Shown here piece by piece: positions 28,890 to 62,921 of a DNA stretch of 64,000 nucleotides. The notes below the pieces were generated by a model that ran no database searches, was not told the origin of the DNA, and was given only the letters and a program-made list of their open reading frames with translations. Both the position numbers and the translations under genes were made by a program. The first letter of the stretch is position 1; each line of letters begins with the position of its first letter. Origin of the DNA: Pseudoalteromonas piscicida (lineage in GTDB: Bacteria; Pseudomonadota; Gammaproteobacteria; Enterobacterales; Alteromonadaceae); assembly GCF_000238315.3 (NCBI RefSeq), contig NZ_CP011924.1, forward strand, positions 1,094,501 to 1,158,500, read 5' to 3'.

Positions 28890-28930
28890 AATGCCTTGCT
28901 TGAACGTTTCTGTTCAGCAGGGCATTTTTT
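28890..28930 (+). terminator. Terminator after the first RND operon
   Basis: AATGCCTTGCT and AGCAGGGCATT form an 11-bp stem (one wobble pair) with a 15-base loop and six T. The patatin tandem duplication begins inside its left arm, at 28897, so the copied version near 29994 has lost most of the left arm. Confidence 0.8.
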
Positions 28931-29020
28931 ATTGCTAAGTTGTATGGAAGCTTGAATTTCTAGGTTTTGCCCTCAGTAAAATAAGATGCGTACAGGTTTA
29001 TATAATAAAAAGAGCACAAC

Positions 29021-29902
29021 ATGACAAATAACATACGCTCTGCAATTATCGCTGAGGGCGGAGGTCAAAAAGGCATTTTTACAGCGGGCGTGCTTGATGC
29101 TTTTCTTGAGAAAAAATTTACGCCTTTTGATTTAAAAGTGGGTGTCTCAGCGGGCGCACAAAACCTCGCAGCTTATTGCGCTCGCGCCAGTCAATATGCG
29201 CAAACCGCTATCGAATCACTTACAACGGAGCAGCAGTTTTTCCGTCCCGCGCGATTTTTTACTGGTGGTAACGTCATTGACTTGGATTGGTATTTTCAAC
29301 AAGTAGAGCACAGCGGCAAAGTACGGTTTCCAACTGAGCCTAATCACCTCACGCCGGAAAGTAACTTTTATGCGGTTGCAAGTCACTTAGACTCGCTTGA
29401 GCCACATTATTTGCATACCTGGCACGATAACATGTTTACCCATTTAAAGGCTTCTAGTGCAATCCCTTTTTTATATCGTCCAGGCGTTAAAGTTGCGGGT
29501 CACGGCATGATGGATGGTGGTGTAGCCGATCCTTTACCCGTACGCTGGGCACACAGTCAAGGGGCAAAGACGATTTGGGTGATCAGAACCATTGAGGCAC
29601 ATGACGATGGCAAAATGCCAGTGCTTGAGCGCTTAAAGCCAATCATGCGACGCGTTAATCAATCTCCTCGAATGTTTGAAATGTATCATCACTATCAAAG
29701 TCGTTATGCCGATGCGGTTAACTTTATGAATTCACCACCAGAAGATGTTAACGTCATTCAAATAGCGCCCAATAGACCACTGGAATCTATGATTTTAGGC
29801 TCAAGCCCAGAGACCTTAAAGTCAGATTATAAATTGGGATTTGAACTTGGATTAAAAGCGGTAGATAAATGGCGAGATATGCTTGAAGTAAGTGTAATGT
29901 GA
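29021..29902 (+). CDS. Patatin-like phospholipase, copy 1
   Basis: A 293-aa patatin-family lipase. It has the oxyanion motif GGGQKG (residues 13-18), the nucleophile elbow GVSAG (Ser at about residue 42) and the catalytic DGG (about residue 166, MMDGGVADP). Length and layout fit the small cytoplasmic patatins such as E. coli YjjU. It probably hydrolyses acyl esters of phospholipids; the true substrate is unknown. The gene stands alone with its own upstream region and a perfect hairpin after the stop. An exact second copy lies 1097 bp downstream. Confidence 0.9.
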   Translation: MTNNIRSAIIAEGGGQKGIFTAGVLDAFLEKKFTPFDLKVGVSAGAQNLAAYCARASQYAQTAIESLTTEQQFFRPARFFTGGNVIDLDWYFQQVEHSGKVRFPTEPNHLTPESNFYAVASHLDSLEPHYLHTWHDNMFTHLKASSAIPFLYRPGVKVAGHGMMDGGVADPLPVRWAHSQGAKTIWVIRTIEAHDDGKMPVLERLKPIMRRVNQSPRMFEMYHHYQSRYADAVNFMNSPPEDVNVIQIAPNRPLESMILGSSPETLKSDYKLGFELGLKAVDKWRDMLEVSVM

Positions 29903-29904
29903 CA

Positions 29905-29929
29905 AGCAAGTCTCAGGTTGAGACTTGCT
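29905..29929 (+). terminator. Perfect hairpin after patatin gene copy 1
   Basis: AGCAAGTCTCA, loop GGT, TGAGACTTGCT: an 11-bp perfect stem three bases after the stop, without a T-run. It is repeated after copy 2 at 31002-31026. Confidence 0.55.
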
Positions 29930-30117
29930 AAGTAACCTGAGCTGCGGATAATTAATGCCTTTCTAGCAGCCAGTTTTAGCGCTAACTGCGTTGTGCTTGA
30001 ACGTTTCTGTTCAGCAGGGCATTTTTTATTGCTAAGTTGTATGGAAGCTTGAATTTCTAGGTTTTGCCCTCAGTAAAATAAGATGCGTACAGGTTTATAT
30101 AATAAAAAGAGCACAAC

Positions 30118-30999
30118 ATGACAAATAACATACGCTCTGCAATTATCGCTGAGGGCGGAGGTCAAAAAGGCATTTTTACAGCGGGCGTGCTTGATGCTTT
30201 TCTTGAGAAAAAATTTACGCCTTTTGATTTAAAAGTGGGTGTCTCAGCGGGCGCACAAAACCTCGCAGCTTATTGCGCTCGCGCCAGTCAATATGCGCAA
30301 ACCGCTATCGAATCACTTACAACGGAGCAGCAGTTTTTCCGTCCCGCGCGATTTTTTACTGGTGGTAACGTCATTGACTTGGATTGGTATTTTCAACAAG
30401 TAGAGCACAGCGGCAAAGTACGGTTTCCAACTGAGCCTAATCACCTCACGCCGGAAAGTAACTTTTATGCGGTTGCAAGTCACTTAGACTCGCTTGAGCC
30501 ACATTATTTGCATACCTGGCACGATAACATGTTTACCCATTTAAAGGCTTCTAGTGCAATCCCTTTTTTATATCGTCCAGGCGTTAAAGTTGCGGGTCAC
30601 GGCATGATGGATGGTGGTGTAGCCGATCCTTTACCCGTACGCTGGGCACACAGTCAAGGGGCAAAGACGATTTGGGTGATCAGAACCATTGAGGCACATG
30701 ACGATGGCAAAATGCCAGTGCTTGAGCGCTTAAAGCCAATCATGCGACGCGTTAATCAATCTCCTCGAATGTTTGAAATGTATCATCACTATCAAAGTCG
30801 TTATGCCGATGCGGTTAACTTTATGAATTCACCACCAGAAGATGTTAACGTCATTCAAATAGCGCCCAATAGACCACTGGAATCTATGATTTTAGGCTCA
30901 AGCCCAGAGACCTTAAAGTCAGATTATAAATTGGGATTTGAACTTGGATTAAAAGCGGTAGATAAATGGCGAGATATGCTTGAAGTAAGTGTAATGTGA
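30118..30999 (+). CDS. Patatin-like phospholipase, copy 2
   Basis: The same 293-aa protein as copy 1, residue for residue, with the same GGGQKG, GVSAG and DGG motifs. The copied upstream segment covers all 124 bases before the start down to the breakpoint, so the same promoter probably drives both copies, unless it lies further upstream. Identity of the two copies means the duplication is very recent, kept equal by recombination, or an assembly artefact. Confidence 0.9.
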   Translation: MTNNIRSAIIAEGGGQKGIFTAGVLDAFLEKKFTPFDLKVGVSAGAQNLAAYCARASQYAQTAIESLTTEQQFFRPARFFTGGNVIDLDWYFQQVEHSGKVRFPTEPNHLTPESNFYAVASHLDSLEPHYLHTWHDNMFTHLKASSAIPFLYRPGVKVAGHGMMDGGVADPLPVRWAHSQGAKTIWVIRTIEAHDDGKMPVLERLKPIMRRVNQSPRMFEMYHHYQSRYADAVNFMNSPPEDVNVIQIAPNRPLESMILGSSPETLKSDYKLGFELGLKAVDKWRDMLEVSVM

Positions 31000-31001
31000 C
31001 A

Positions 31002-31026
31002 AGCAAGTCTCAGGTTGAGACTTGCT
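31002..31026 (+). terminator. Perfect hairpin after patatin gene copy 2
   Basis: Second copy of the AGCAAGTCTCA/TGAGACTTGCT stem with loop GGT, three bases after the stop; identical to the hairpin at 29905. Confidence 0.55.
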
Positions 31027-31029
31027 AAG

Positions 31030-31227
31030 TAACCTGAGCTGCGGATAATTAATGCCTTTCTAGCAGCCAGTTTTAGCGCTAACTGCGTTGAATTCACTTC
31101 CAATAGCCAGCTATTGGTGCGTAAATTCGCCTTGTTTTCCCTAAAACTCTCTGGCTAGACAAGGAAAAAACTAAGTTGTTCTTTAGCAACAATGAGTTGG
31201 AACATTCCTTATCCAAACCTCAGGTTA
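31030..31227. mobile_element. 198-bp inverted-repeat (MITE-like) element, intact copy
   Basis: The element begins TAACCTGAG and ends CTCAGGTTA, perfect 9-bp terminal inverted repeats that extend imperfectly (GGATAA near the left end, TTATCC near the right). Inside there is a hairpin, CCAATAG-CC-AGCTATTGG. It has no coding capacity. Its left third (29933-29993) is also present in the first unit of the patatin duplication. Two other copies lie in this window, at 54551 (partial) and 61348 (split by an IS). Relation to a full transposon is unknown. Confidence 0.75.
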
Positions 31228-61347: not shown

Positions 61348-61541
61348 TAACCTGAATTCGAGATAACAATTTGTTCTCTGGCAGCTGTTATCCCTTACTA
61401 CTGCGTTAAATTTGCTTGCAATAGTCCAGCTATTGACGCACAAATTTGCCTTGTATTAAGAAATAACTTCTGGCTAGAGTGATATTACGCTTTTTAACTT
61501 AGTGATTTTAGTGGATTAACTTACTTCTTATCCCGAGTTCA
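61348..61541. mobile_element. 198-bp inverted-repeat element split by an IS
   Basis: Begins TAACCTGAATTCGAGATAA; the matching end TTATCCCGAGTTCA stops at 61541 and its last bases (AGGTTA) are found beyond the IS at 62875-62880. The inner part (gcaatagtccagctattg, caaatttgccttgt) matches the element at 31030. Joined across the IS it would be about 199 bp, the same length as the intact copy. The remaining bases from here to the IS transposase gene belong to the IS. Confidence 0.75.
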
Positions 61542-61659
61542 TATATGGTCTCCTCCCTTATTGCAAGGTTTCTTTAGTAAATAACAGGGACAGGATTGCT
61601 GTCATATATACGGTCTGTTAATGAGTTTTATTTGAAACTCTGACCTAGATGTAAATCGC

Positions 61660-61724
61660 GCATATTGCCCTAATCAGGTTATCGGTATTTAGCTACCCCT
61701 GAGCTCGACAGGTTTTCAATATGC
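61660..61724 (-). ncRNA. Predicted target-binding loop of a bridge (seek) RNA
   Basis: Read on the minus strand: outer stem GCATATTG (61724-61717) pairing with CAATATGC (61667-61660); left internal strand with CGAGCTCAGG (61707-61698); inner stem GGTA-GCTAAA-TACC (61697-61684); right internal strand with TAACCTGAT (61681-61673). The left strand equals the target top strand CGAGTTCA(GG) except one base; the right strand is complementary to the right flank ATCAGGTTA (62872-62880). That is the layout of target-guiding loops in IS110/IS1111 RNAs. The full RNA boundaries and the donor loop are not defined. Confidence 0.6.
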
Positions 61725-61785
61725 CGGTTTGACCTGTTATGTCATCTACTTCAGTCACTTTCGCAATTCGGTGAAAGAAATCTAC

Positions 61786-62796
61786 TTATCTTGCTTGATA
61801 TGCCTCTTTTGATACTGTAATTGCCCAGGCCACTCTAGCCATTTTATTGGCATAAGCGACACAGGCTTTATTATGCCCTCGCGTTTGTACAAGTCGATTT
61901 ATCCAAAGACTCAGTTGGTCTGTTTTATACTTTGCTCTCGATACAACCGATTTCGCCCCTTGAATAAGTAAACATCTCAAATATCGATTACCACGCTTAC
62001 TTATCCCGAGCAAAACTGATTTTCCACCCGTACTACGTTGCTTGGGCACGAGACCTAATGAGGCTGAAACATCTCGCCCTTTTGTATAACCACTACCATT
62101 CCCCACTTCGTTAAAGTAACTACTTGCAACTATTGGCCCTATGCCCGGAATACTCTGTAAATTGACGCATATCTCATTGTTTTTAACTTGCTCTTTTATC
62201 TGTTGATTGTACGTTTCAATACTTTCATCAAGCACTTGTAGGAGTTTATAGAGTTGGCTAAGCACTTGTTTAAAGCTCGCGGTCAATACTCGCTCCTCAC
62301 CTAACAAAGCAGCCACTTCTTTGCGAACATTTTCGATACCTTTAGTAATGGCAATGCCGTACTCAAGTAGCAAACCTCGAATTTGATTACTCAGTGCTGT
62401 TCGTTGACCAATTGCAAGCTCTCTCACTTTATGGATTGTTTGACTATCTTGCTGCTCTAATGTTTTCACTGGAACTGAGCGAATATGTGCCTGCTGTGAT
62501 GCAATTAAAATTGCATACGCATCGTTGTAATCATTTTTATTCCCCGTCAAAAATGGCTTCACGTGTTGTGGTGGTATGAGCTCAACTTGAAAACCTAATT
62601 GGCTAATTTCACGACCCCAATAATTAGAGGTTCCACACGCTTCCATGACTAATTTACAATTTGGCATTTGTGCCAAATAAGTCAGTAGTTGACGACGTTT
62701 AATAGCTTTCTTTACTACAATCTTATTGGATAGGTTACATCCAATAAAATGAAAAATATTTTTTGCGATGTCGATACTGATTGTTGTAATCTGCAT
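61786..62796 (-). CDS. IS110-family (IS1111 group) transposase
   Basis: A 336-aa DEDD-type recombinase. ISIDIAKNIFHFIG (first Asp, near residue 9), VMEACGTSNYWG (Glu), and KNDYNDAYAILIA (Asp pair) form the N-terminal RuvC-like site; LQSIPGIGPIVASSYFNEVG and GLVPKQRSTGGKSVLLGISK, KRGNRYLRCLLIQGA form the C-terminal Transposase_20 domain with its serine region. ATG 62796 follows gggagaag and gives the usual MQITTISIDIAK start; the longer frame to 62868 would begin inside the inverted repeat. It moves by an RNA-guided mechanism (established for the family). Confidence 0.9.
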   Translation of the reverse strand: MQITTISIDIAKNIFHFIGCNLSNKIVVKKAIKRRQLLTYLAQMPNCKLVMEACGTSNYWGREISQLGFQVELIPPQHVKPFLTGNKNDYNDAYAILIASQQAHIRSVPVKTLEQQDSQTIHKVRELAIGQRTALSNQIRGLLLEYGIAITKGIENVRKEVAALLGEERVLTASFKQVLSQLYKLLQVLDESIETYNQQIKEQVKNNEICVNLQSIPGIGPIVASSYFNEVGNGSGYTKGRDVSASLGLVPKQRSTGGKSVLLGISKRGNRYLRCLLIQGAKSVVSRAKYKTDQLSLWINRLVQTRGHNKACVAYANKMARVAWAITVSKEAYQAR

Positions 62797-62921
62797 TTGG
62801 TCTTCTCCCATTTCGATTGTTTGCAATTCAATCATGGCACACCGATGCCGAGTGTGGGAGGAGACCATTACATCAGGTTAAATAAAGCGGCTTCTAAAAG
62901 TAGTAAGCCGCTTTGAGTCTG

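Follow-up and report, generated by a model that had tools for sequence, protein, structure and literature searches.

The closest described systems are the IS1111 elements with a seekRNA and IS621 with its bridge RNA. In the Results and Discussion of Siddiquee et al. (2024; PMC11187229), the subterminal inverted repeats of IS1111 elements are usually 11-13 bp long and are extended by 7 nt on the left and by 3 nt on the right. The group is further characterised by a DEDD transposase of about 330-350 aa with the domains PF01548 and PF02371, a long non-coding region 3' of the transposase gene (tnp), and insertion without target duplication at a fixed site and in a fixed orientation. A seekRNA contains two segments matching the top and bottom strands of the target, the top-strand match coming first. 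In the IS110 group in the narrow sense (IS621-like), the RNA lies upstream of tnp, repeats are absent or very short, and the bottom-strand match comes first. Bridge RNAs were predicted in 93.0% of IS1111s, with donor nucleotides in a multiloop in many, in the sections of Durrant et al. (2024; PMC11208160) on these groups, where donor and target pairing was inspected by hand in six elements, three per group.

The element reported here was found in Pseudoalteromonas piscicida (genome of 5.49 Mb in two contigs), in a window of 64,000 nucleotides, which is the whole stretch of DNA that was analysed. It shows each of the IS1111 and seekRNA features named above and none of those of IS621-like elements, and is clearly a further case of the type of guide-RNA system that was first reported in 2024. 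Beyond these features, seekRNAs co-purify with the transposase and are required for transposition, and bridge RNAs have a donor-binding part pairing with both ends of the IS. The element and its target comprise the following features.

61542..62875, minus strand: IS1111-type insertion sequence (IS), 1334 bp, delimited by an empty orthologous site and by the same ends in four further copies in the same genome
61786..62796, minus strand: tnp, transposase/recombinase gene, 336 aa
62869-62875, minus strand: left 7-nt extension TGATGTA, preceding the left inverted repeat
62856..62868, minus strand: left subterminal inverted repeat, ATGGTCTCCTCCC in minus-strand reading
61545..61557, minus strand: right subterminal inverted repeat, GGGAGGAGACCAT in minus-strand reading
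61542-61544, minus strand: right 3-nt extension ATA, after the right inverted repeat
61348..61541, with the last bases GGTTA at 62876-62880, plus strand: interrupted MITE-like repeat (about 200 bp), targeted at its right terminal repeat and identified from an uninterrupted copy at the orthologous site of genome G034

Both transposase domains were above cut-off in the tnp product, which scored 295 bits against NCBIfam NF033542 (IS110 family RNA-guided transposase). Residues D10, E53, D90 and D93 were invariant in 13 aligned transposase proteins. A longer tnp reading frame (61786-62868) has its start inside the inverted repeat. The inverted repeats are perfect over 13 bp, and 247 nt of non-coding sequence lie downstream of tnp, between its stop codon and the end of the IS. 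The domains, NF033542 and the layout of repeats and extensions agree with the IS1111-type assignment made in the preliminary description. The transposase sequence had no match at 1e-3 in the Protein Data Bank, and Rfam at the gathering threshold reported only one tRNA in the whole 64-kb window.

The ends of the IS were fixed from the empty orthologous site together with the inverted repeats and their 7-nt and 3-nt extensions. In genome G034 the two flanks adjoin at C14:434289-434291, where the sequence runs on through the end of an uninterrupted repeat, about 200 bp long; in genome G071 adjacency of the flanks at C116:107734-107736 was taken from match coordinates only. The empty site means that target duplication is absent. 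The bounds given previously, 61558..62880, differ from these ends by 16 and 5 bases and were corrected accordingly. In G034 and G071 the IS also has its two closest relatives, both of which look inactive: tnp of L011 (G034) contains a stop codon, and L012 (G071) lacks its right end. Two further IS1111-type elements of the own genome (L068, 4371-6425; L069, 1826-3999), of about 36% identity, are inserted at GGTGG|AGCGGGTTCACCCC; in both, the first transposase match is closely followed by a second partial one.

The search for relatives covered the genus (108 genomes), the order (394) and the class (369) and was supplemented with the best 80 of 115 loci from named genomes; relatives were taken from among the matches listed, at most 30 loci per genome search, with E-value limits of 1e-60 and 1e-85. 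Among the best 80 of these 115 loci, the nearest relative by name was that of Pseudoalteromonas flavipulchra (L115). L115, L116 and L121 are second fetches of L011, L012 and L072. The search for inverted repeats applied distance limits. We kept 65 distinct non-coding regions with a transposase identity of at least 43.5%, a plausible repeat, a length of 220-320 nt and a right extension of ATA (or belonging to L011), counting identical regions once. They formed two groups, one of 31 elements with the repeat ATGGTCTC, the other of 34 elements in which the repeat is ATGGAC or a close variant. Among those dropped were 28 loci in which no repeat was found, L122 (damaged right end), L012 (truncated right end), loci with wrong repeats (e.g., L123 and L129), and all relatives below 43.5%. 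For the structure alignment and the donor tests 30 sequences of the first group were used, L133 being left out for an internal deletion.

The non-coding 3' part of the IS is predicted to fold, on the minus strand, into a guide RNA with the following parts.

61561..61766, minus strand: guide RNA core, stems P1 to P6 (predicted), from covariation in 30 sequences
61660..61724, minus strand: target-binding loop (predicted), bounded by the outer stem and containing the apical hairpin
61724-61717 / 61667-61660, minus strand: outer stem GCATATTG/CAATATGC, 8 bp, double changes in 5/8 pairs
61697-61694 / 61687-61684, minus strand: apical (inner) hairpin GGTA/TACC, 4 bp, double changes in 4/4 pairs
61707-61698, minus strand: strand in the target loop containing CGAGCTCAGG
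61681-61673, minus strand: strand in the target loop containing TAACCTGAT

Nine helices with 42 pairs were aligned over the 30 sequences, and 96.2% of 1258 cells were paired, against 34-40.5% when the helices were slid by 1-3 columns. The covariation score was 0.303 versus 0.148 in shuffled alignments, none of 500 shuffles being as high, and 19 pairs were changed on both sides versus 9.2 in shuffles. RNAalifold recovered the inner helices unaided and paired the outer parts otherwise, so that P1 and P2 rest on manual reading. Folding of the single 249-nt region recovered the target loop and gave mixed outer pairings. The 8-bp outer stem, the 4-bp inner hairpin and the two internal strands were thus found at the places where they had been read by eye, and covariance folding over homologous IS, a check proposed at that time, revealed a conserved structure with compensatory changes. 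In addition, joining the right and left IS ends yielded a promoter motif, TTGCnn, 16-18 nt, TAYGAT, in 30/31 elements; at the junction of the window element it reads TTGCAA, 17 nt, TATGAT.

The two internal strands were compared with the insertion sites in fixed alignment columns, as follows.

61700..61707, minus strand: first target guide, 8 columns, fixed-column permutation z 12.0, also located by a window scan
61675..61681, minus strand: second target guide, 7 columns, fixed-column permutation z 12.2, also located by a window scan

Both internal strands had been described as matching the insertion site of the element itself; the second does so at 7/7 positions, whereas the first has one mismatch (7/8), already visible in the letters given in that description. 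Taken alone, the window copy was only suggestive, with p 0.03 in a register-free comparison of exact matches with 200 shuffled targets, and another copy with the same right flank gave p 0.065 in that test. A register-free search proved too weak for distant relatives, with p <=0.05 in 18/62 rows, including 8/9 rows with at least 61% transposase identity, and fixed columns were used instead. Over the 31 elements of the first group, Watson-Crick matches to the own site amounted to 202/248 and 199/217, whereas 20,000 permutations, which ignore relatedness, averaged 110.9 and 98.1 and reached at most 144 and 133 (z 14.0 for both strands together). The own site was the best or tied for 25/31 elements. 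When 248 and 244 alignment windows were scanned with 300 permutations each, the maxima (z 12.8 and 12.4) fell exactly on the two strands; the next best windows had z 3.7 and, at the donor strand treated below, 5.7. Both strands are the variable parts of an otherwise conserved RNA in the 31 elements. The 34 elements of the second group likewise gave one peak per strand (z 9.5 and 8.9), and 14/34 had at most 4/8 right-guide matches in the fixed columns, partly through a shifted register or a contig end. The guide reading of the loop strands is therefore backed by own-site matches in relatives beyond all 20,000 permutations, and most relatives at other sites carry other, fitting strands. Six of the 31 elements fit another site better (L072, L131, L128, L097, L147 and L152). 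L125, L139 and L147 were apparently out of register, and left guides were weak in L117, L119, L141 and L144. We assume that such mismatches are tolerated, which would fit the concordance of mostly zero to two mismatches given for IS621 and its relatives in the published sections on guide matching.

Five copies of the IS are present in the genome; over a core of 1325 bp they show 0, 0, 1, 1 and 2 differing bases. Each sits at the end of a MITE-like repeat, where TAACC|TGA continues with ACTCGGG (two copies), GCTGCGG (two) or GCGCGGA (one), and all are oriented alike relative to the target word. Their right-guide matches were 7, 6, 7, 6 and 7 of 8, none being perfect; the target word matching the guide perfectly would be TAACCTGAGCTCG, and the natural word is TAACCTGAACTCG. 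The site in the own genome is the end of this abundant repeat because that end holds TAACC|TGA(A/G)CTCG or a close word. The repeat had 15 DNA matches in the own genome, and its terminal word TTAACCTGARCTCGGGATAA occurred 92 times at <=3 mismatches versus 0 for a reversed control, since this word ends the MITE-like repeat. Across the genus the word was matched at least once in 86/108 genomes, with 240 matches in G001; the reversed control also had one or two matches in some genomes, so that low counts per genome mean little. Around L011 and L120, which are inserted at words matching their guides, no further such word occurs within 400 bp. The repeat end is thus one carrier of the target word and no requirement. 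The earlier claim that the guide explains insertion into the terminal repeat of a 198-bp element stands insofar as this end holds a matching word, whereas L011 and L120 do without the repeat.

Several further observations were made on the repeat and its surroundings. The end word is widespread in the genus and occurs in the window at 29932 and 31029. Very similar inverted ends were present at IS sites in Shewanella (L188) and Paraglaciecola (L131) genomes. Two of the five IS copies, L240 and L241 (C1:1364k and C1:4111k), are in opposite chromosomal orientation and, besides the IS itself, have about 1.39 kb of left flank in common, inside a 2721-bp match at 99.85%, and are therefore not independent on the left side; the sharing reflects a real duplication, recombination between copies, or an assembly error. 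A tandem duplication was seen in 11/19 regions examined in the own genome, chosen mostly for paired repeat ends (window 28897-31090 and L242-L251), with a spacing of 962-1546 bp and 100% identity over the part seen. The position of the break within the MITE-like repeat varied, and wherever both ends were visible the microhomology amounted to 0-2 bp. In the window duplication (28897-31090) a 293-aa ORF, presumably patatin-like, is present twice. G034 and G071 each gave one match in a search aimed at this ORF region. We suspect that the tandem duplications are unmerged contig overlaps in the assembly rather than biology.

Because permutation ignores descent, a matched-pair test was made with 14 disjoint pairs whose guides differ at no fewer than three places; the matching used the identity outside the guides (0.62-0.90). 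In 13/14 pairs the result was reciprocal, each guide fitting its own site better than that of the partner. The closest pair, L118 and L120, both recorded as Colwellia, was 90.4% identical over 1339 aligned bp. L120 is inserted at TAACC|TGAGATCG and has the guides CGATCTCA and TAACCTG. L118 is inserted at CGAGC|TGAGGTTA, has the guides TAACCTCA and CGAGCTG, and its apical hairpin is new. Read from the other side, the L118 site is TTAACCTCAGCTCGGGATAA, a word like the repeat ends, as judged from the word alone. By sequence comparison, the guides of L118 have swapped roles relative to L120, its site being a similar word in reversed orientation. No report of role-swapped guides giving reversed orientation was found in the open-licence papers searched. 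A single-base version of re-aiming was seen in a 62% relative in G005, where the guide AGAGTTCA corresponds to TGAACTCT, a form frequently seen at repeat ends in G005.

Five RNAs were each found at more than one distinct site: L003 (5), L013 (3), L099 (2), L161 (2) and L077 (3). According to the preliminary description, one loop serving unrelated sites would speak against a guide. L003, L013, L099 and L161 show no such behaviour and match all of their own sites (6-8/8 right, 6-7/7 left), whereas L077 shows it in part: its right guide matches 4, 1 and 1 of 8 in the fixed columns and its left guide 6, 6 and 5 of 7. L077, with the same loop and unlike right flanks, is the one partial counter-example.

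The RNA also contains two strands, absent from the preliminary description, that correspond to the ends of the IS itself.

61648..61654, minus strand: right donor guide TTACATC, the complement of GATGTAA at the left end of the IS, from covariation
61602..61610, minus strand: left donor guide TATATATGA, of the same sense as the IS right end and core (8/9 bases), from equality of the core base

TTACATC is located between the target loop and the next stem, and TATATATGA past that stem. The TTACATC strand matched the own left end at 166/210 positions in 30 elements, versus a mean of 150.8 and a maximum of 163 in 20,000 permutations. By count it was the top window in both groups (166 vs 122 for the next, and 165/231 vs 136), and by z as well, with a modest margin (4.9 vs 3.9 and 7.3 vs 5.7); L113, which has a gap, was left out of the scan of the second group. 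Couples in that group included TAATGGA with TCCAT, TGATGAG with CTCAT and CAATGGG with CCCAT. The extension base adjoining the core was not Watson-Crick paired in 28/33 elements of the second group, 7 of which would be G-T. The right end hardly varies, so that only its core base could be tested by covariation. This base was equal in the left target and left donor strands in 30/30 elements, and equal to the first base of the right flank in 29/30; the first base of the left extension agreed with the right flank in only 24/31. Probably, judging from these sequence correlations, the guide RNA reads the ends of its own element.

Three other explanations bear on these data. The RNA might pick the target only, the transposase alone reading the IS ends through the inverted repeats, with donor-like strands that are not guides or are not needed. 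ISEc11 moved with a short 82-nt RNA bearing the target strands (42% transposition; Siddiquee et al., PMC11187229), and the Results and Discussion of that paper describe no donor loop and call end recognition unknown. The strand matching the right end is constant and thus beyond the reach of covariation, and the 28/33 elements lacking a Watson-Crick pair next to the core would suit this explanation as well. Against it, strand 61654-61648 covaries with the left extension in both groups, where it is the top window by count and z, and the core base is the same in both loops in every one of the 30 elements. We consider target-only guidance unlikely.

Recognition of the MITE-like hairpin by the transposase itself, the RNA having another role such as tnp control, would account for the five own-genome copies at repeat ends, and of eight loci inspected, L188 and L131, with L072 as a possible third, show a second, inverted end at a distance of 170-230 bp. 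However, the guide-matching words at which L011 and L120 sit lack a second end over 400 bp, the guides of L118 are swapped and its word is reversed, and other elements occupy quite different sites matched by their loops. Hairpin recognition is thereby strongly disfavoured and very improbable. Finally, the strands could match by accident or derive from target DNA acquired by an ancestor, and the p value of the window copy alone would leave room for this. None of 20,000 permutations was as high, however, and the guide strands, more than 100 nt into the element, occupy a constant place in the structure. Chance or captured flank is refuted by the permutations, the matched pairs and the window scan.

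The locus is thus best read as an IS1111-group element whose movement very probably relies on a bridge/seek RNA derived from the non-coding region downstream of tnp. The IS would circularise, and the joined ends would form the promoter seen at the junction, from which tnp and the RNA may be transcribed. The RNA is predicted from covariation to fold into the outer stem, the target loop and a donor multiloop. In the donor part, the least sure step, TTACATC would read the left IS end, as covariation suggests, and TATATATGA may read the right end. The DEDD recombinase would then exchange strands at a shared core starting with TG, without target duplication, by a chemistry presumed from IS621. For the IS1111 group as a whole, the data make it fairly likely that full two-loop bridge RNAs read the target as well as the ends of their own element, that target loop, donor loop and core base evolve together, and that guides can be replaced up to an exchange of strands with entry in the opposite orientation.

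The 65 distinct elements with their sites speak for IS1111 RNAs that read both donor and target, and L118/L120 is a natural pair showing re-aiming with reversed orientation. Natural pairs of guide and site may help in learning the mismatch tolerance of programmable recombinases. The guide RNA was picked from raw sequence by eye, and its relatives bear that out.

Compared with known systems, the element resembles the seekRNA elements ISEc11, ISPa11, ISKpn4 and ISPst6, as presented in the Results and Discussion of PMC11187229, in its downstream non-coding region, its repeats and extensions and the absence of target duplication. The order of guides is also alike, the top-strand match lying 5' of the bottom-strand match, as are the circle-junction promoter of the ISEc11 type and the natural re-aiming among relatives, there represented by ISEc11 and ISXne4 (same sections of PMC11187229). 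Unlike those elements, this new one has as its target the end of a Pseudoalteromonas MITE-like repeat. A donor strand, of which those sections of PMC11187229 give no description, is backed statistically here, and one relative is re-aimed to a reversed similar word. The IS621 bridge RNA, in the sections of PMC11208160 that describe it, is alike in having two guide parts, both of them with strands for the top and for the bottom DNA strand and with the core included, and in target and donor guides that covary with the DNA. It differs in that the RNA lies upstream of the gene and the guides are in the opposite order (PMC11208160). To the IS1111 part of Durrant et al. (PMC11208160), the present analysis adds covariation tests. 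Insertion linked to an abundant short palindromic repeat has a parallel in the IS elements targeting REP repeats, in the passages of Tobes and Pareja (2006; PMC1525189) on such insertions; here, in contrast, the repeat is a MITE-like element of about 200 bp, and its choice is explained by the guide strands.
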